From Helicobacteraceae bacterium (GTDB taxonomy: Bacteria > Campylobacterota > Campylobacteria > Campylobacterales > Sulfurimonadaceae): a DNA stretch of 47,481 nt. A model generated the notes under the pieces. That model saw only the letters and a program-made list of their open reading frames with translations. It was not told where the DNA came from and did not search any database. Made by a program: the position numbers and the translations under genes. Shown here in pieces: positions 24,268 through 33,959 of this stretch; within the stretch, counting starts at the first letter, position 1, and every line of letters begins with the position of its first letter. The DNA is taken from NCBI GenBank assembly GCA_015488775.1, contig WFNF01000115.1, forward strand, positions 1 through 47,481, written 5' to 3'.

Positions 24268-25134
24268 ATGATAAAAATTTTCATTTTAACCTTACTAGCA
24301 ATAAATTTAATTGCTCAACCCTTGTTTAGTAATCACAACCAGATGGATACAAGTAACTACATCACATCACTAAAAGATTTACTTATTGCTACACAAAAGA
24401 CAAGAGGTATGACTTACACTTATCTTAAAGGTGATTCATCAGTAGTTTTTATTGTAATGAACTTCAGAAAAGAGATGAAAAAAGCTCTCATGGAACTTGA
24501 AGTTTCCCAGCTTGGTGGAGATAAAGTTCTAAAAAGTAGAGAAGAGAGACTATCTGATAATCTAATTAGACTAAATAGAAACGCAATGAATATGAATCCA
24601 GAAAAAATGTTTCAGGAATATACTATTGAGATTGAAAATATTTTGGTATTGGCAAATTTAGCAGAGATTAGAAGTTCTGAAAATTTAAATGAACTTGGAA
24701 AACTTAGTGTAGAAAATCTTTTAAAAACTGCTTTGCCTTTAACAGAGGACATAGGTCAGCTAAGAGCATTAGGCGCTGGAAGTATAGCTACACTAAATGA
24801 AACAGGTTCGTTAGATGAGTCCAAAATAAAATCTATGCAAATATTACTTCCAGAAATAGAATCAGTGCTAAGAGAGTTTGAAATTGGTTCTGCCTCAGTA
24901 TCCGCTCACTACTCAAAACCTATGGATATTGATCTAAAAACAGTTCTTAGTACAAACAGAGCGGATATAGATACATTCATGCAACTTACAGATAAAATCT
25001 TTTTAAAAGGTGAATCAACGACTTTGACTCCACAAGAGTATTTCGAAATGGGAACTAATTGTATCAATAATCTTTTAAAGATTTTTAAACTACAAAACAA
25101 AGCAATTATGGCTTCATCTAAGGGTTGGTTCTAA
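24268..25134 (+). CDS. Exported NIT-like (nitrate/nitrite-sensing type) helical protein
   Basis: A 288-aa protein whose ATG at 24268 is preceded by GGAGAG. A TTG four codons earlier is less likely. It begins with a signal peptide (MIKIFILTLLAINLIAQ). The rest is almost all helical. The first helix carries 'TQKTRGMTYTYLKGD', matching the RG-M-x-x-x-YL signature of NIT sensor domains. The same signature occurs in the hybrid kinase at 10657-14055. No transmembrane anchor or output domain follows, so it is probably a free periplasmic protein that binds a ligand or a partner. It converges on and overlaps the MIP18-like gene by 4 bases. Nitrate or nitrite binding is inference. A TATAAT hexamer at 24220-24225 may be its -10. 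Confidence 0.7.
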   Translation: MIKIFILTLLAINLIAQPLFSNHNQMDTSNYITSLKDLLIATQKTRGMTYTYLKGDSSVVFIVMNFRKEMKKALMELEVSQLGGDKVLKSREERLSDNLIRLNRNAMNMNPEKMFQEYTIEIENILVLANLAEIRSSENLNELGKLSVENLLKTALPLTEDIGQLRALGAGSIATLNETGSLDESKIKSMQILLPEIESVLREFEIGSASVSAHYSKPMDIDLKTVLSTNRADIDTFMQLTDKIFLKGESTTLTPQEYFEMGTNCINNLLKIFKLQNKAIMASSKGWF

Positions 25135-25445
25135 GAACCAATTCCTGTCGCCTTTAACTTTTCCTTTACACTCTCATCAGCTAAATCTATACTCCAAACA
25201 GGTTCCCATACAATTTCAACTGCACAAAACTCACTTTTTGTTTCCCTTTCAACTGCTTCTTTAACCCATGTTTGCATCATCTGATGAAGAGGGCAACCTC
25301 TTGTAGATAAAGTCATCTTAACACTTACATGATTATTTTTTAAAATTAGCACATCATATATAAGTCCCATTTCAACTAAATTAAACCCAACTTCAGGATC
25401 TATCACCGTACTAATAGCCTTATAAACTTCATCTTTAGTTACCAT
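25131..25445 (-). CDS. MIP18/DUF59 family iron-sulfur cluster protein
   Basis: A 104-aa member of the MIP18/PaaD/SufT-like family, which helps mature iron-sulfur or other metalloproteins. Visible features are the DPEVG loop (residues 16-20), 'NLVEMGLIYDV' and the conserved cysteine C51 in TRGCPLHQMM. An ATG at 25445 follows the upstream stop closely, with AAGGAG seven bases before it. It is the last gene of a three-gene unit behind the Fnr-type box, so it may service a metal centre in the heme-copper-like membrane protein or a partner enzyme. Similar genes are often found with nitrogen-oxide metabolism genes; this is context, not proof. Confidence 0.88.
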   Translation of the reverse strand: MVTKDEVYKAISTVIDPEVGFNLVEMGLIYDVLILKNNHVSVKMTLSTRGCPLHQMMQTWVKEAVERETKSEFCAVEIVWEPVWSIDLADESVKEKLKATGIGS

Positions 25446-25447
25446 AA

Positions 25448-26689
25448 CTACGCTCCTTTTGAATAATTCATCATCTCTTTTACACTTAGCACTAAATATA
25501 TTGAACCAACCAATAAAAAAGATATTCCACTTTTAAACATAAAATCATTTTTAAATAAAAATGAAAATCCAATCACTACCGTACCTATCATGCTAAACGT
25601 CATCTGAGCACTAGCTTTTAATCTTGGAACCATATCATTTAGTAGTGGTACTTTTTGCTTTCCAACCAAAGGAGCGAATCTTTCAAACCAAACCAAGAAT
25701 GGAATGATTTTATATAAATGTGCAGTAATTAAAAATCCTACAAAACCTACCATCAAAAACCAAGTAGCACTTACTAACCAAAATTCTCTACCACCAAGAA
25801 TATTAATAGTAAAAAATACCAAACTTATGATTAATGAAAAAAAAGCAAAAGCCAAAGATTTAACCCAAATATCATTCATTTTTCTTGCTCTACTTTTTGT
25901 TACAAGATATATTTGATAAAAATATATCAACATAGATATAAAGCTAAATACAATAGCTATTTTTTCAAAGTACCTAAATTCAAATAAAGAAGAAACTATC
26001 ATTAAACTAATACTAGCAATCATTATGTAAAATGCATATTTAATAGGCTTATCGTTAAATCCATGTGACAAACCGAACATTGGCAAAAGAACCATAGATA
26101 TACCCATTATAGTTATAATTACATATCCTCCAAATACAGCGAAAACATGTGCTTTTAACCAGAGTATTGGATTAAACTCAATAAGACCACTAAAACTCAA
26201 ACTCATAACAAAGCCACTCAAAATTCCAAGAATCAAAAAGAGATTACTTATAAGCATAGAATTAACAACAATAGATTTATGTTCACCTTTTTTTATTGTT
26301 AAAAGCAAATCAAGTGCAAATATCATCATCGACATCAAAACTATAGTTCCACCAAATGGTAAAACACTAAGATTTACAGTAAATCCAATCACCATTAACA
26401 CAGTTCCAAGCAATAAAGTTGGCCAAATTATATAAAATAGTTCAACCATAGAGTGCCCTGTTTCTATAACTACAGGTACAAGTTGTGCCATAGCTCCAAA
26501 AATCACCATCATTACAAAACCAAGCATATAAAGATGAACCCACCCTACTACCTTAAAGTCAGTAATACTTATATTTGTATCAAAAGTAAACAAAGATAAA
26601 ACTGCTAAAAAATATATAATAGTACCTATAAAAAAATATGGTGCTATTAGTTTAAATGGAGGGGCAAAGTCTCTTGATATATTACCCAT
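25448..26689 (-). CDS. Polytopic heme-copper-oxidase-subunit-I/NnrS-like membrane protein
   Basis: A 413-aa protein with about 12 membrane helices. Conserved-looking histidines fall within helices: H52 (GWVHLYMLGF), H181 (KAHVFAVFGGY) and H324 (ITAHLYKIIPFLVW), plus H209 at a helix end. This layout resembles the short heme-binding relatives of cytochrome oxidase subunit I and NnrS proteins, which protect against or respond to nitric oxide. The full catalytic HCO set (copper-B histidine trio, cross-linked Tyr) is not evident, so oxygen or NO reductase activity should not be assumed. It is the middle gene of a tight leftward operon under the Fnr-type box. Confidence 0.7.
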   Translation of the reverse strand: MGNISRDFAPPFKLIAPYFFIGTIIYFLAVLSLFTFDTNISITDFKVVGWVHLYMLGFVMMVIFGAMAQLVPVVIETGHSMVELFYIIWPTLLLGTVLMVIGFTVNLSVLPFGGTIVLMSMMIFALDLLLTIKKGEHKSIVVNSMLISNLFLILGILSGFVMSLSFSGLIEFNPILWLKAHVFAVFGGYVIITIMGISMVLLPMFGLSHGFNDKPIKYAFYIMIASISLMIVSSLFEFRYFEKIAIVFSFISMLIYFYQIYLVTKSRARKMNDIWVKSLAFAFFSLIISLVFFTINILGGREFWLVSATWFLMVGFVGFLITAHLYKIIPFLVWFERFAPLVGKQKVPLLNDMVPRLKASAQMTFSMIGTVVIGFSFLFKNDFMFKSGISFLLVGSIYLVLSVKEMMNYSKGA

Positions 26690-26698
26690 AATTAAATG

Positions 26699-27043
26699 TT
26701 ATCCACAAGTCTTATCAGACAAATCTGCCTTTTCACTATCTCCATCTTTATAAGAAAAAATAAGTTTAACCTTTCCATCTGCTAATATACTCTCTTCAAT
26801 ATCATAATTCTCACCTATTTTTGCTATAAGCCCACCTGGTGACTTATGGTTTATCATAACAAGTTTTTTGTTTTTATCTGTAACTAGGTTCAATCCTACC
26901 ATTGCATTTACCATCGGTTCTGGAGGTCCTGTCATAGATGAATCGAACTGAAAATATATATTTTCACCTATAGTATATGTATAAAATTCAAGACTAGAAC
27001 CCTCTACTTCAATTTTTTTTGCATTTTCTGGTAATAAACTCAT
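26699..27043 (-). CDS. Small acidic conserved protein in the Fnr-box operon
   Basis: A 114-aa soluble protein with no signal peptide or membrane segment. Notable are 'SSMTGPPEPMVNAM' near the middle, 'MINHKSPGGLIAKIGENYDIE', and a C-terminus ending in Cys-Gly (DKTCG). The ending CG and the PPEPM motif suggest metal or thiol chemistry, but no family is recognised with confidence. It is the first gene behind the leftward Fnr-type promoter, with an AAAAGG ribosome site. It sits 9 bases from the heme-copper-like gene, so a shared function is likely. Confidence 0.7.
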   Translation of the reverse strand: MSLLPENAKKIEVEGSSLEFYTYTIGENIYFQFDSSMTGPPEPMVNAMVGLNLVTDKNKKLVMINHKSPGGLIAKIGENYDIEESILADGKVKLIFSYKDGDSEKADLSDKTCG

Positions 27044-27065
27044 ATAAATCCTTTTAGTTTTAAAA

Positions 27066-27071
27066 ATAATA
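27066..27071 (-). promoter_or_regulatory. -10 element (TATTAT) of the leftward Fnr-type promoter
   Basis: On the minus strand TATTAT starts exactly 22 bases after the TTGAT-N4-ATCAA box. That puts the box centre at -41.5, the geometry of a class II Crp/Fnr-activated promoter. Transcription would start near 27059. Confidence 0.65.
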
Positions 27072-27093
27072 CCATTATGTTAAAAATCTACAT

Positions 27094-27107
27094 TTGATAT
27101 ATATCAA
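27094..27107. promoter_or_regulatory. Perfect Crp/Fnr-family operator TTGATATATATCAA
   Basis: The 14-base palindrome matches the Fnr/Nnr consensus TTGAT-N4-ATCAA at every fixed position. It lies between the divergent small acidic protein gene and the di-heme cytochrome c gene, 21 bases before the cytochrome start codon and 50 before the leftward start codon. Which Crp/Fnr paralogue binds is unknown. Confidence 0.8.
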
Positions 27108-27128
27108 TCAATTAGATATACTATCTTT

Positions 27129-27677
27129 ATGATTATAAAATATATACTAATACTAATAACTGCATTTACGTACTCTCAAGCCTTTGATCAAGAGTTATAT
27201 GACAGAGGAAAACTTATATATGAGCAACGCTGTACATTTTGCCATAAACAAGATGGAACTGGCACAAATGCATTTTCAGCAAACTTACAAGAGAGAATAT
27301 CTTTTGAGAGTACAATAAAAGTTATTAAGTACGGTTCACATAACTTCAAAAAAAAATATCCCCTTGGTATGCCACCTTTAGTTTCTGATCCAAAAGATGT
27401 CTATCTTATAGGTGCATATATATCATTAGGTATGCCTCCAGCACATCCAGGAAAAAAATTATATAAAAAATATAAATGTTTTATGTGTCATGGTAATGAT
27501 GGTAGTGGTATAGAGGATGTAGCTCCAAACATCTCATTTTTCAATAAAGAAACTTTAAAAACTATACTTACAAATGGTAAAAAAGGCTCAATTGGAACTA
27601 TGCCAAACTTTTCATATTTAGGTGATAATGGGATTGAAGCAGTATCTGAATATATTATATATTTTGATGAGAAGTAG
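27129..27677 (+). CDS. Di-heme cytochrome c (c4-like), periplasmic
   Basis: A 182-aa exported cytochrome. A signal peptide (MIIKYILILITAFTYSQA) precedes two c-type domains with heme sites C35-x2-C38-H39 and C117-x2-C120-H121. Likely axial methionines are M81 (PLGMPPL) and the one in GTMPNF near 160. Two fused single-heme domains suggest a c4-type electron carrier or a small dehydrogenase subunit. There is almost no 5' leader. TATACT at 27117-27122 would start transcription at about the ATG, so the mRNA may be leaderless, and no Shine-Dalgarno is visible. The Fnr-type box lies immediately upstream. Confidence 0.9.
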   Translation: MIIKYILILITAFTYSQAFDQELYDRGKLIYEQRCTFCHKQDGTGTNAFSANLQERISFESTIKVIKYGSHNFKKKYPLGMPPLVSDPKDVYLIGAYISLGMPPAHPGKKLYKKYKCFMCHGNDGSGIEDVAPNISFFNKETLKTILTNGKKGSIGTMPNFSYLGDNGIEAVSEYIIYFDEK

Positions 27678-27721: not shown

Positions 27722-28837
27722 TTATAATTCCAAATTTATTTGTATAGTATTTGATTTTTCACCTCTAAACGTAAAGTAAAAATCATAAACACCACTTGAT
27801 AAAGGTTTTGCGAATAGCTTTTGTATTTCTCTATTTAGATACTTTCTCTTTTTTTGATATAAATAAACTTTTCCATCCTTAAATTTTGTTATATCCCTAT
27901 AATCTCCACTTATTTTATTTACAGTATAAAAAACTTTACTTTCATTAAAAGAGCCATCTTTAGATTTCAAGTATAAAACAATGTCATCATCTTTATAATT
28001 ATAGTCCACATTTATTTTTGCAAAAATAGAAAAATCAAAACTACTATAAGTTTTAGGAATGTTAATAAAAACACCTAATTTCCTTATACTTATTCTTTTA
28101 TTTCCAATAATCGGGTTAAAATAGCATTTATTCCTTCGCACTCCACTTAAATTTTTAAAATCACATCCATTTTGATAGCTAATTAGTTTACTTGTACTAA
28201 TTAAGTTCAATATAGGGCTGTTGTCAATATTTCCATTTTTATCATACAAGGGTTCTTTTCTATAAAATTCTAAAATACTAATATCTATCGTAACTGTATT
28301 TGATTTTTTACCCTTATATGTGAAATACAAATCATATAAACCATCTTTTGGCAATTTAGGAAACAAATCTATTAATCTAAAACTACGCATTTTTTTGATT
28401 CTAGTTTTTGATATATTTTTATCATTTTTTAAATATATTTTACTTTCTTTAGACAAAAATAATGATGATTTACTATATAATCCATCCTTCTTTTGTAGAT
28501 GTATAGAGATATCCTCATCCCTATAACCTGAGTTAATATTAATATAAGCCAATATATGAAAGTTTCTATACTCATATTTAGATGGAATACTGATAAAAAC
28601 ACCATTTTGTTTACAAATATCTGTTTTATCTGTTTTATATGATAAACCTACACATGGAAGTAATTCTTTTGAAAGTTTATCTTTAGATGAAAAAAGAACA
28701 TATATTTCAGATTTTTTTTGCAGTTTTTGTACAATATCTGCGTTTATAGGCATACAATAAAAAATTGTAATAATAAAGCTATATATTAAGCGTACAAAAA
28801 TATATCTTATCTTCTTTTGGATTGTAAAATTATTCAT
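27722..28837 (-). CDS. Exported protein with two tandem homologous domains
   Basis: About 371 aa from the ATG at 28837, which sits one base after the stop of the cyclase remnant. A start 12 codons upstream (28873) has a better ribosome site (AAAGG), so the choice is open. A basic N-terminus and hydrophobic segment suggest export. The mature part is two copies of one domain of about 150 residues. Copy 1 has 'GVFISIP', 'YRDEDISIHLQKKDG' and 'YDLYFTYKGKKSNTVTID'. Copy 2 has 'GVFINIP', 'YKDDDIVLYLKSKDG' and 'YDFYFTFRGEKSNTIQIN'. Beta-rich content suggests Ig-like folds. Each copy has a cysteine pair upstream of the GVF motif. No family is recognised. Confidence 0.6.
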   Translation of the reverse strand: MNNFTIQKKIRYIFVRLIYSFIITIFYCMPINADIVQKLQKKSEIYVLFSSKDKLSKELLPCVGLSYKTDKTDICKQNGVFISIPSKYEYRNFHILAYININSGYRDEDISIHLQKKDGLYSKSSLFLSKESKIYLKNDKNISKTRIKKMRSFRLIDLFPKLPKDGLYDLYFTYKGKKSNTVTIDISILEFYRKEPLYDKNGNIDNSPILNLISTSKLISYQNGCDFKNLSGVRRNKCYFNPIIGNKRISIRKLGVFINIPKTYSSFDFSIFAKINVDYNYKDDDIVLYLKSKDGSFNESKVFYTVNKISGDYRDITKFKDGKVYLYQKKRKYLNREIQKLFAKPLSSGVYDFYFTFRGEKSNTIQINLEL

Positions 28838-28838
28838 T

Positions 28839-29019
28839 TTAATAGTGAACACTATAAATTTCAACCTCTTCATATTTACCTTTTACTTTTACAGTATCTA
28901 AAAACTTTACATTAAAACTATCTTCCAATAATTTAGACGTATATTCTACCCCAAAACTTCCTAACAAAATAATAAAAATAGTAGAAATAATTAAAAAAGA
29001 GTATAGTCTTGTTAAACAT
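28839..29019 (-). pseudogene. Collapsed class III adenylate/guanylate cyclase remnant
   Basis: The last 37 codons of this frame read FGVEYTSKLLEDSF followed by VKFLDTVKVKGKYEEVEIYS. This is the typical C-terminus of class III nucleotide cyclases (FRELDxVxVKGKxEPVxIYEV). Just before it lies an N-terminal-looking hydrophobic segment (LIISTIFIILLGS). Its ATG at 29019 (MFNKTILF) is out of frame by one base in a T6 run, and the whole catalytic core is missing. The simplest reading is a large internal deletion plus a frameshift. It lies between the tandem-domain gene and a divergent FecR gene, a common partner of CHASE2-type cyclases. Confidence 0.7.
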
Positions 29020-29051: not shown

Positions 29052-29624
29052 ATGCTTAAAAAATTAATATTATTCTCAACTTTCTCATTTTTAGCTATTG
29101 CTGATCAAAATATATATTTTGAAGGGGATGTTAAAGTTAATGGAAAACCTATAACTAAAACAAGTAAAATCACAAGTGGTGACATAGTACAAACAAGTAA
29201 AAATTCAAAAATAAAATTTAATATAGGTAAAGATGCTTTTATAGCAAAAGGTAAAAGTAAATTTACACTTAAAAAAACTAATACACAAAAAGTTTTAGAG
29301 GTTATAGATGGAGGTGTAGTTGCTGTGTTTAATGGAGATGGTAAACATTCAATAGAAACTAAAAACATGACTGCAGGTATAAGAGGAACGGGAACTTACA
29401 CATTAGTTAAAGATAATAAAACATACTTTTGTACTTGTTATGGTGAAACAGAGTTAAAATCAAAATCTACACATAAGTCTTTAGCTTTAAAGACACATCA
29501 TCATAAAATGGTTTGGGTAACAAAAGATAGTATAAAAAATGCTATGACTATGGAAGGCCACAGTGATTCAGACCTATATGAAGCAGAACATTTTGTAAAT
29601 TCAAGTCCGGATTTTCGTAAATAA
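29052..29624 (+). CDS. FecR-domain exported protein
   Basis: A 190-aa protein with a signal peptide (MLKKLILFSTFSFLAIA) and a FecR-like beta domain. Features are 'KVNGKPI', 'ITSGDIVQTSKNSKIKFNIG', 'VIDGGVVAVFNG' and 'TAGIRGTGTYTLV'. After the domain come C127-x-C129-Y-G and H149-H150-H151, possible metal ligands. The protein is periplasmic or cell-surface associated. It is not the TonB-linked FecR sigma regulator, as no sigma factor or TonB receptor is near. The start has AGGA upstream. The stop overlaps the SDR start by one base. In related genomes such proteins are often paired with CHASE2 cyclases, and here that partner is decayed. Confidence 0.82.
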   Translation: MLKKLILFSTFSFLAIADQNIYFEGDVKVNGKPITKTSKITSGDIVQTSKNSKIKFNIGKDAFIAKGKSKFTLKKTNTQKVLEVIDGGVVAVFNGDGKHSIETKNMTAGIRGTGTYTLVKDNKTYFCTCYGETELKSKSTHKSLALKTHHHKMVWVTKDSIKNAMTMEGHSDSDLYEAEHFVNSSPDFRK

Positions 29625-31329: not shown

Positions 31330-31548
31330 TCACTCTGGCTTATAGTTTCTCTTTTTTAACTCTTCCTTTTTTTTATCAGCATCTGCTCTTGCGTTTAACT
31401 CTTTTTCATCATCATACATCATAGCACTCATCATTTTTGATTCATCATCAAATTGTCCATTTTTTATGCCCCACATAAAAGCAAATAGAGCTATTGCTCC
31501 AAGAAAAAGTGATGCTCCAAGCATCATAGCTATTACCCATCCGTCCAT
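31330..31548 (-). CDS. ccoS: cbb3 oxidase maturation protein CcoS
   Basis: A 72-aa single-pass membrane protein of the CcoS/FixS family, needed to insert cofactors into cbb3-type cytochrome oxidase. One N-terminal membrane helix (WVIAMMLGASLFLGAIALFAF) is followed by the family's 'WGIKNGQFDDES' turn. A charged Lys/Glu/Asp tail completes it. It starts five bases after the ccoI stop and is the last gene of the asparaginase-ccoI-ccoS unit. The structural ccoNOQP genes are not in the window. Confidence 0.93.
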   Translation of the reverse strand: MDGWVIAMMLGASLFLGAIALFAFMWGIKNGQFDDESKMMSAMMYDDEKELNARADADKKKEELKKRNYKPE

Positions 31549-31553
31549 AATTT

Positions 31554-33959
31554 TTATCCTTTTTTATTCCAAGTATATCTTATTCTCATTGAGTTTGCTA
31601 CTACTAAAAGTGAGCTTACACTCATAGATATAGCAGCTATAAGAGGTATGATGAAACCAGCCATTGCAAGTGGTATAGTTATAGCGTTATACAATAAAGA
31701 TAAAGCCAAGTTTTGTTTGATCAGTTTAAATGTAGTTTTAGATATCTTAAACGATTCATATAAAGCTTGTAGAGAGTCATTTAAGAGTATGGTATCACTT
31801 ACATCTATTGCTATATCACTACCACTTCCCATAGCTATAGAGATATCACTTAAACCTAAGGCTAATATATCATTTACACCATCTCCTACCATAACTACTA
31901 TTTCACCATTTTTTTGAAGTTTTTTAACATACTCCTCTTTATCTTGAGGAGTTAAGTTTGAGTAAGCTTCATCTATGCCAACCTCATCAGCTATATACTC
32001 AACAACTGAACTATTATCCCCTGATAACATTACAGTTTTTATACCAAGTTTCTTAATTTTATCTATATATAATTTAGCATCTTTTTTTGGTGTATCTTGT
32101 AGTTTAAACTCAGCCAAAAGTTCATCATTTTTTGCAAAATAAAAACTTGTAAAATGAGTATCAACTGAAGTTTTTATACCATTTTCGTTCATATAAACTG
32201 AACTTCCACCAATATATTTAACACCATCTAACTCTAATTCTATGCCTCTTGCTTTAACCTCTTTAATATTATCTATATTTAAAACTTGTAAGTTGAGATT
32301 ATCATTAAGTAAATAATTTTTTATCCCATTTGAAACTGGGTGTGTTGAGTTAGAAACCATAGAAAAAAGTATCTCTTTATACCCACTTGAAAGAGAAGGT
32401 GAGTCTATAACCTCCATATTTCCATTTGTTATAGTTCCTGTTTTATCTAAAAGTAATGTTGTAGCTTTTGCCATACTTTCTAAATTTGATGCCTCTTTAA
32501 ACAAGATACCTCTTTTAGCTCCTAAAGATAAACCAACTAAAGTTGCAACTGGTGTAGCCAAAGCTAAAGCACAAGGACAAGCTATAACTATAACAGATAT
32601 CGCAACCATAAAAGATGTTTCAAAATTATGTGGCCAAAAAAACCAAACTAAAAAAGTTAAAAATGAAAAAATCAAAATAGCACTTGAAAAATGTTCACTT
32701 AAACGGTTTGCTAAAATCTCAATTTTAGGTCTATTTTTCATAGATTTTTCAAGAAGAGTAATAAGATTTGAAATAGTTGAGTTTGAAAAGTCTTTTGTTG
32801 TTTTATACTTAAGTATAGCATCAACACTAGTAGTTCCACTGATCAATGATTTACCTAGACTTTTATATATAGGAGTTGATTCCCCAGTTAAACTAGATTC
32901 ATCAAAGCTACCCTCACCCTCGACTACAACTCCATCTATGGCAACTCTTTCACCAACTTTTATAGAGATAACCTCACCCTCTTCAACATCTTCAACCTTT
33001 TTAGAAAAAATGTCATCTCCATCAACTACATTGACCTCAATTGGTATATGTTTACTAAGAATATCAAGAGTATCAGCAGCATTTTTTTTACTTAAAACTT
33101 CTAAAAATTTACCAAGTAAAACAAATGTTATAATCATAGAAACAGAATCAAAATAAGCTTCCCCATGTTCCATAAAAGTTATATATATAGAATAAATATA
33201 AGTAAGAGATGCTCCAGTAGCAACTAATATATCCATATTTACCACTTTGTTTTTTATACCAAAGTAAGCACCCCTAAAAAATATACTACCACTATAAAAT
33301 AGAACAGGAGTAGCTAAAACCCACTCTGCAACATTTAGTATATTTTTAATGTTTTGTTCTATCCCACTAAAGTAACCAGCATATTGAGCTACTGCTATCC
33401 ACATAATATTCATAGATGAAAATGTAGCAACGGCCATTTTTAGATAATACTCTTTTCTTAAAGAGTTTACACCACTCTCCTGAAGAGCTTTATCGTAAGG
33501 AAAAGCGTCATAACCTATGCTTCTTATCATATCTATAATCTGTGAAAGTTTTACAATATCATCTGCCCAAGTTATAAAAGCTTTGTTGTTTGTGTAGTTT
33601 ATATGAACATCAACAACACCCTCCATTTTATAAAGAGCTTTTTCATTTAGCCACACACAAGCACTACAATGTATTCCCTCTATAACAAGAGCAACCTCAC
33701 TAAATCCATCTTTATCTTTTTTTACAAACTTATCATAAAAAGCATTTGAATCGAAGTTTGAGCTATCTTCAAACTGGTTTTTAGGCGCAGATAATGCTTT
33801 ATTTCCAACTTTATCATAAAAACTATCTAAGTCACTATCTTTAAGTAGGTGATATATCCCTTGACAACCCTTGCAACAAAACAGTAACTCTTCATCTTTT
33901 ATTAAAACATCTTCCTCAAATTCAAGATGACAGTGACTACATTGTTTTTGCAAGTTCAA
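31554..33959 (-). CDS. ccoI: Copper-exporting P1B-type ATPase CcoI/FixI
   Basis: An 801-aa inner-membrane copper pump that supplies copper for cbb3 oxidase assembly. An N-terminal zinc-ribbon-like region (CSHCHLEF ... CCKGCQGIYHLL) precedes the heavy-metal-associated domain with GIHCSACVW. Eight membrane helices include the ion-site motif CPCALALATP. The phosphorylation site is D505 in DKTGTITNG. The TGES (SLTGEST), HP (NSTHPVS) and GDGVND motifs are all present. It overlaps the asparaginase-like gene by 23 bases and is followed by ccoS. The cysteine-rich N-terminus and the ccoS neighbour identify it as CcoI rather than CopA. Confidence 0.95.
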   Translation of the reverse strand: MNLQKQCSHCHLEFEEDVLIKDEELLFCCKGCQGIYHLLKDSDLDSFYDKVGNKALSAPKNQFEDSSNFDSNAFYDKFVKKDKDGFSEVALVIEGIHCSACVWLNEKALYKMEGVVDVHINYTNNKAFITWADDIVKLSQIIDMIRSIGYDAFPYDKALQESGVNSLRKEYYLKMAVATFSSMNIMWIAVAQYAGYFSGIEQNIKNILNVAEWVLATPVLFYSGSIFFRGAYFGIKNKVVNMDILVATGASLTYIYSIYITFMEHGEAYFDSVSMIITFVLLGKFLEVLSKKNAADTLDILSKHIPIEVNVVDGDDIFSKKVEDVEEGEVISIKVGERVAIDGVVVEGEGSFDESSLTGESTPIYKSLGKSLISGTTSVDAILKYKTTKDFSNSTISNLITLLEKSMKNRPKIEILANRLSEHFSSAILIFSFLTFLVWFFWPHNFETSFMVAISVIVIACPCALALATPVATLVGLSLGAKRGILFKEASNLESMAKATTLLLDKTGTITNGNMEVIDSPSLSSGYKEILFSMVSNSTHPVSNGIKNYLLNDNLNLQVLNIDNIKEVKARGIELELDGVKYIGGSSVYMNENGIKTSVDTHFTSFYFAKNDELLAEFKLQDTPKKDAKLYIDKIKKLGIKTVMLSGDNSSVVEYIADEVGIDEAYSNLTPQDKEEYVKKLQKNGEIVVMVGDGVNDILALGLSDISIAMGSGSDIAIDVSDTILLNDSLQALYESFKISKTTFKLIKQNLALSLLYNAITIPLAMAGFIIPLIAAISMSVSSLLVVANSMRIRYTWNKKG

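Follow-up and report, generated by a model that had tools for sequence, protein, structure and literature searches.

Organization of the locus

The window analyzed here, a 47,481-nucleotide stretch of a Helicobacteraceae genome, contains three leftward open reading frames of 114, 413, and 104 amino acids, separated by gaps of 9 and 2 nt. Gene 1 (positions 26699 to 27043, reverse strand) encodes P114, which appears to be a divergent protein of the DUF2249/TusA fold; gene 2 (25448 to 26689, reverse strand) encodes HCO413, a membrane protein with 12 helices and a predicted COX1 fold; and gene 3 (25131 to 25445, reverse strand) encodes a DUF59/MIP18 protein similar to SufT and PaaD. Read from sequence, the three genes are one operon. 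The order gene 1-gene 2-gene 3 was held in most of the Campylobacterales loci compared, so the genes stay together as the original prediction had proposed; the DUF59 gene was absent from a few loci and was adjacent in 33 of those first compared. Recurrent neighbors of the operon were napA, napG, napH, napB, met8, nirDL, and genes for hemerythrin, FmdE, a DUF1858-DUF2249 protein, and Crp/Fnr regulators. The operon is likewise carried, with 47% identity to that of the window, by a metagenome record (L180) whose title, Helicobacter pylori PMSS1, looks like that of a mislabeled bin.

Upstream of gene 1 lies a predicted activator box of the FNR/DNR/Nss type, TTGATATATATCAA (27094 to 27107, reverse strand), which scores 10/10 against TTGAT-N4-ATCAA and, in agreement with the earlier description of a perfect Fnr-type box, is the sole perfect match inside the window. 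Reading leftward, a TATTAT -10 element (27066 to 27071, reverse strand) starts 22 nt past the box, which places the center of the box at -41.5 for a transcription start that class II geometry predicts at approximately 27059 (an A). A leader of 15 nt holding the putative ribosome-binding site AAAAGGA (27049 to 27055, reverse strand) then leads to the ATG of gene 1 at 27043. Nevertheless, the perfect box alone is weak evidence, since 0.26 perfect matches are expected by chance per shuffled window and since pattern searches of the 2.7-Mb genome gave 9 perfect boxes against 18 for a reversed control pattern, that is, no enrichment genome-wide. For this reason, the box count was dropped as evidence.

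The genes flanking the operon were also inspected. On the right, a rightward gene (27129 to 27677) encodes a 182-amino-acid protein with two CXXCH motifs, consistent with the di-heme cytochrome c described before. As a divergent gene coactivated with the operon it was rejected, because only 21 nt separate its start from the box, too short a distance for activation of the class II type, and because it does not stand beside the operon in relatives; it is therefore no longer counted in the unit. A -35/-10-like pair overlaps the box, so occupancy of the box could repress the cytochrome c gene rather than activate it. The convergent protein encoded at 24268 to 25134, formerly regarded as periplasmic and NIT-like, gave no match to the NIT family up to an E value of 1 and has no relatives beside the operon elsewhere, so both its name and its place in the unit were given up. 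Likewise, the 383-amino-acid neighbor (27722 to 28873) was discarded as an operon member because it has no relatives beside the operon in other loci. This protein, flanked by the cytochrome c on one side and by a FecR-like protein (29052 to 29624) on the other, consists of two halves that look alike, and it matched no family. Farther away, at 31330 to 33959, what looks by eye like a copper-type P-ATPase of 801 amino acids is followed by a small CcoS-like protein; CcoI and CcoS are the usual pairing for the assembly of cbb3 oxidases.

Conservation of the box and its spacing

The comparison of promoters covered 100 distinct regions upstream of gene 1, taken from whole-genome loci and from 80 named loci with titles including Sulfurimonas, Sulfurovum, Hydrogenimonas, Nitratiruptor, Nitratifractor, Sulfurospirillum, Arcobacter, and Helicobacteraceae, among others. 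A box scoring at least 9/10 was present in 82 of these 100 promoters and was perfect in 57, against 8% of 700 unrelated genes from the same loci that reach 9/10. In 76 of the 80 promoters that could be measured, a TAnnnT element followed at a distance of exactly 22 nt from the box; every other spacing between 10 and 35 nt was found in at most 17%. The half-sites were 95% identical, compared to an average of 34% for the flanking DNA, and boxes were present in all 10 of the families sampled. Several of the promoters that fell short of 9/10, among them those of three of the four nearest relatives, carried TTGAC-N4-GTCAA, which is the palindrome of the box with one change per half. The NssR site of C. 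jejuni, TTAAC-N4-GTTAA, had no consistent match among the orthologous promoters and was on these grounds ruled out as the box of the operon.

Therefore, it is the conservation of both box and spacing among orthologous promoters that gives the box its significance and, judged by this comparative evidence, it is a real, functioning site. The box is thus kept at orthologous loci, and the class II geometry of the original prediction is conserved across the order. A chance box that arose in AT-rich DNA and plays no part in regulation would agree with the 0.26 matches expected per window and with the genome-wide counts. However, such a box would hardly be conserved with its exact 22-nt spacing in ten families, nor would the full motif stand in its own genome only at nitrogen-oxide genes (see below), and we regard the probability of this explanation as negligible.

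Properties of the encoded proteins

The assignment of gene 1 rests on its homologues and on a structure model. PF10006 (DUF2249) was matched by 15 of 37 gene 1 homologues, with a best E value of 2e-8, and TusA by 2 of 37. P114 of the window had no significant Pfam match and the gene 1 family profile found none in one DUF2249 set, which is why we term the protein DUF2249-like. The model (pLDDT of 92) matched a SirA-like protein, and a sequence search of the PDB with gene 1 returned nothing useful. Kinship to the DNase I fold, raised by Foldseek matches to genotoxin subunits and TDP2, was rejected on account of low TM-scores and the fraction of the targets covered, and these hits are taken as partial topology matches.

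HCO413 was predicted by AlphaFold2 to have 12 helices (pLDDT of 93), and Foldseek matched the model to bo3, cbb3, and NO reductase chains; PF00115 was matched by 12 of 43 gene 2 homologues. In the family, H52 and H181 are invariant, H324 is conserved in 98%, and H209 in 90%, and neither the helix 7 histidine pair (CuB or FeB) nor the helix 10 HxH of true oxidases was found. Profile alignments placed helices 1 to 4 on helices 9 to 12 of CcoN, with H52 on a low-spin heme ligand; a weaker alignment placed helices 5 to 8 on helices 1 to 4 of CcoN, with H181 on the other low-spin ligand. Helices 5 to 8 also aligned with helices 1 to 4 of NnrS (profile-profile E value of 2.6e-6), and HCO413 had no PF05940 (NnrS) match up to an E value of 1. 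The histidine conservation, together with the alignments to CcoN and NnrS, suggests one bis-histidine heme and no binuclear site. HCO413 is thus probably a single-heme homologue without a CuB site, and from its profile it looks like a distant relative of NnrS. The protein was described earlier as heme-copper-like; the COX1 fold supports the name, but the CuB ligands are missing. For gene 3, the DUF59/MIP18 identity proposed before was confirmed by PF01883 (E value of 9e-14; 51.9 bits, with a cutoff of 23.5), and in its family Cys51 and His54 are invariant.

A regulon shared with nitrogen-oxide genes

The 2.7-Mb genome was searched for the full motif, i.e., the box (TTGAY and RTCAA allowed) followed after 22 nt by TAnnnT. 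Exactly three sites matched without mismatch, preceding this operon, nnrS (C5), and napA (C97). By a rough estimate from base composition, chance alone would supply two to three of them, so their number is uninformative; what is telling is their location, as all three precede nitrogen-oxide genes. Upstream of the C97 napA (L183:8257-11876), the site reads TTGACTCAGGTCAA, with TATTAT 22 nt on; this napA also has a Crp/Fnr gene of its own upstream, with an AxxSR helix in place of the ExxSR of other regulators. With one mismatch, the search detected ATGATATATATCAA, with TAAAAT 22 nt on, before a second copy of genes 1 and 2 (C98). In addition, TTGACATATATCAA stands before a hemerythrin gene that is followed by a third HCO paralogue (C96). 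Both are short units: the C98 pair (L041:6229-7799) lacks a DUF59 gene, and the C96 pair (L042:397-2125) consists of the hemerythrin and HCO genes. The occurrence of three HCO paralogues under one motif suggests functional diversification.

In other genomes, the box was found in the promoters of napA (21 of 26), met8 (21 of 27), and nirDL (21 of 23), compared to 8% of unrelated genes; these genes were sampled as neighbors of the operon, and a few boxes were perhaps counted for two divergent genes. Siroheme decarboxylase is the product of nirDL. Overall, these comparisons make a strong case that the operon belongs to a nitrogen-oxide regulon of Campylobacterales.

Candidate regulator

In all four of the nearest relatives (L102 to L105; 57 to 64% identity), gene 1 is paired with a divergent Crp/Fnr gene, which takes the place of the window's cytochrome c. 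A 216-amino-acid Crp/Fnr protein encoded elsewhere in the window's own genome (C18) groups with these four regulators, with support of 90/71 and on a long branch, so that the grouping is tentative. Two Crp/Fnr proteins of this genome carry an ExxSR recognition helix, namely, the C18 protein (KPETLSR) and one on C17 (REVISR), and PETLSR or PETFSR stands at this position in almost every regulator linked to the operon. The ExxSR helix is used by FNR and DNR proteins for TTGAT sites. By these signatures, the regulator of the operon is probably an Nss/DNR-like Crp/Fnr protein and, in this genome, most likely the C18 protein with the KPETLSR helix.

An operon for microaerobic respiration under the oxygen control of a true FNR, with no specific link to nitrogen oxides, would account for a box that equals the E. 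coli FNR consensus and for the terminal oxidase fold of HCO413. Nevertheless, we consider it very unlikely, given that the same box stands at nap, nirDL, met8, and nnrS genes, that the oxidase active-site ligands are missing in HCO413, and that the operon-linked regulators are Nss-like Crp/Fnr proteins.

Phyletic distribution

Of the 200 genomes sampled from the order, 113 had homologues of gene 2, distant paralogues included, and 105 had gene 1. Gene 1 was present in 72 of the 77 genomes with strong cd1-type genes (NirS/NirN/NirF-like), in 72 of the 79 with NosZ, in 70 of the 79 with NorB, and in 81 of the 103 with NnrS. Each of these co-occurrences had a Fisher P value of <1e-14, not corrected for phylogeny; the counts took in 104 of the 105 gene 1 genomes, 103 of the 104 with NnrS, and 199 of all 200 genomes. 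Together with the box at napA, met8, nirDL, and nnrS, they bear out the link to nitrogen oxides that had been proposed from the window. The operon family was absent from some sampled genomes with NirS, NorB, or NosZ. Conversely, 20 gene 1 genomes of the approximately 200 sampled had none of the three denitrification enzymes (NirS-type, NorB, and NosZ), suggesting that the operon tracks nitrate and NO metabolism generally and not denitrification alone. The window's genome (95% complete) is likewise without NirS-type, NorB, and NosZ genes and has NapA and NnrS. Given the conserved switch that it shares with genes for nitrate respiration and the NO response, the operon is very probably part of how Campylobacterales cope with nitrogen oxides.

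Within the same regulon, the operon might instead be an accessory or maturation unit that aids the assembly, cofactor supply, or electron supply of Nap, NirS, NorB, and NosZ and has no part in NO protection. The position of the operon in or beside nap clusters would fit such a role, as would the action of DUF59 proteins in Fe-S assembly and the requirement of the Thermus DUF2249 proteins DrpA and DrpB for nitrate reductase activity (PMC6282519), and the present findings in no way separate a defense or repair role from a maturation role. However, the 20 sampled genomes and the window's genome carry the operon without NirS-type, NorB, and NosZ, the operon is often distant from nap, and the kinship to NnrS and the hemerythrin-paired paralogue point to NO. 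We therefore hold the maturation role to be possible, if somewhat unlikely.

Proposed function

We give an even chance to the reading that the operon is a unit of a nitrogen-oxide regulon, under class II control of the Nss/DNR type, which combines a single-heme NO binder with metallocenter service. An Nss/DNR-type Crp/Fnr protein would be activated during nitrate respiration or exposure to NO, bind the box at -41.5, and recruit RNA polymerase as a class II activator. HCO413, as a relative of NnrS, would probably bind or buffer NO at the membrane via its single heme. The DUF2249/TusA-fold and DUF59 proteins would act as small, probably cytoplasmic partners, which probably service iron or iron-sulfur centers, either damaged by NO or required by respiratory enzymes. 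These roles are suggested by the NnrS kinship, the hemerythrin pairing, the DUF59 protein, and earlier links of DUF2249 proteins. A more specific version is unlikely as a whole: the trio would form a dedicated and so far undescribed machine at the membrane, in which NO is trapped by the single-heme HCO homologue and electrons or iron are handed on to the DUF2249-fold/DUF59 pair, and this pair rebuilds nitrosylated iron-sulfur centers, beside NnrS and hemerythrin, in nitrate-respiring Campylobacterota.

A sensor module is also conceivable, in which HCO413 and the DUF2249-like gene 1 product would detect nitrate or NO and adjust the regulator accordingly, much as has been suggested for DrpAB, the proposed nitrate sensors of Thermus (PMC6282519). 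The DUF2249 kinship of gene 1 and the regulator gene that adjoins the operon in many loci agree with this. Nevertheless, a one-component Crp/Fnr regulator requires no membrane sensor, DUF59 has no obvious sensing role, and neither an HCO-like nor a DUF59 partner has been reported for DrpAB, making a sensor quite improbable.

Under the regulon reading, the conserved switch is a firm tie between the operon and nitrate/NO metabolism and indicates the conditions under which the operon should be expressed. The operon occurs in about half of 200 Campylobacterales genomes, among them those of major nitrate-reducing bacteria from vents and sulfidic waters, and HCO413 would add a relative of heme-copper oxidases devoid of the active site to the few proteins thought to handle NO.

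Comparison with known systems

HCO413 shares with CcoN (cbb3) and NorB the fold, with TM-scores of about 0.6 to 0.7, and with CcoN the position of the low-spin heme ligand. It differs from both in lacking the ligands of CuB and the high-spin heme, and the operon has no partner subunits. Families of heme-copper oxidase homologues (HCOH) outside the true oxidases, including NnrS (PF05940), were reportedly described by Pei et al. in 2014, who are said to have defined them by COX1 homology and about two conserved histidines for one heme. The 12-helix COX1 fold, the few conserved histidines, the nitrogen-oxide context, and the NnrS profile match liken HCO413 to these proteins, but it has no PF05940 match and its conserved positions differ. 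PMC11218638 cites the HCOH work for an association with DUF2249. Thermus DrpA and DrpB and the DUF2249 proteins of Haloferax are induced together with nitrate respiration or with denitrification (PMC6282519, PMC11218638). The similarity is remote, and no HCO-like or DUF59 partner has been described for DrpA and DrpB. A literature search found no paper on the three-gene operon and none joining DUF2249 and DUF59. Thus, the suggestion of an undescribed system holds for the operon itself, but HCO-homologue families and links between DUF2249 and denitrification had been noted before.

As for regulation, excerpts of two papers describe systems in the same phylum: NssA, NssB, and NssC of Wolinella succinogenes respond to nitrate, NO, and N2O (PMC6682613), and in Nitrosophilus labii exact TTGA-N6-TCAA sites start 48 to 49 nt before the starts of nap, nor, and nos (PMC11539149). 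These Nss regulons resemble the operon in phylum, site, distance to the start, and nap targets; the targets named in the excerpts are nap, nrf, nor/nir, and nos, and the three-gene operon is not among them (PMC6682613, PMC11539149). The DNR regulon belongs to another phylum, and the putative regulator of the operon is termed DNR-like. A further link runs through COG4309, presumably the DUF2249 family. In Pseudomonas and beta-proteobacteria, nnrS is a member of the DNR regulon and COG4309 is cotranscribed with nor genes, so that the TTGATnnnnATCAA motif, nnrS, and the COG4309 link are shared with the operon (PMC1274295). Set against these systems, the operon joins a familiar kind of promoter to established protein superfamilies, in a widely conserved combination that is as yet uncharacterized.
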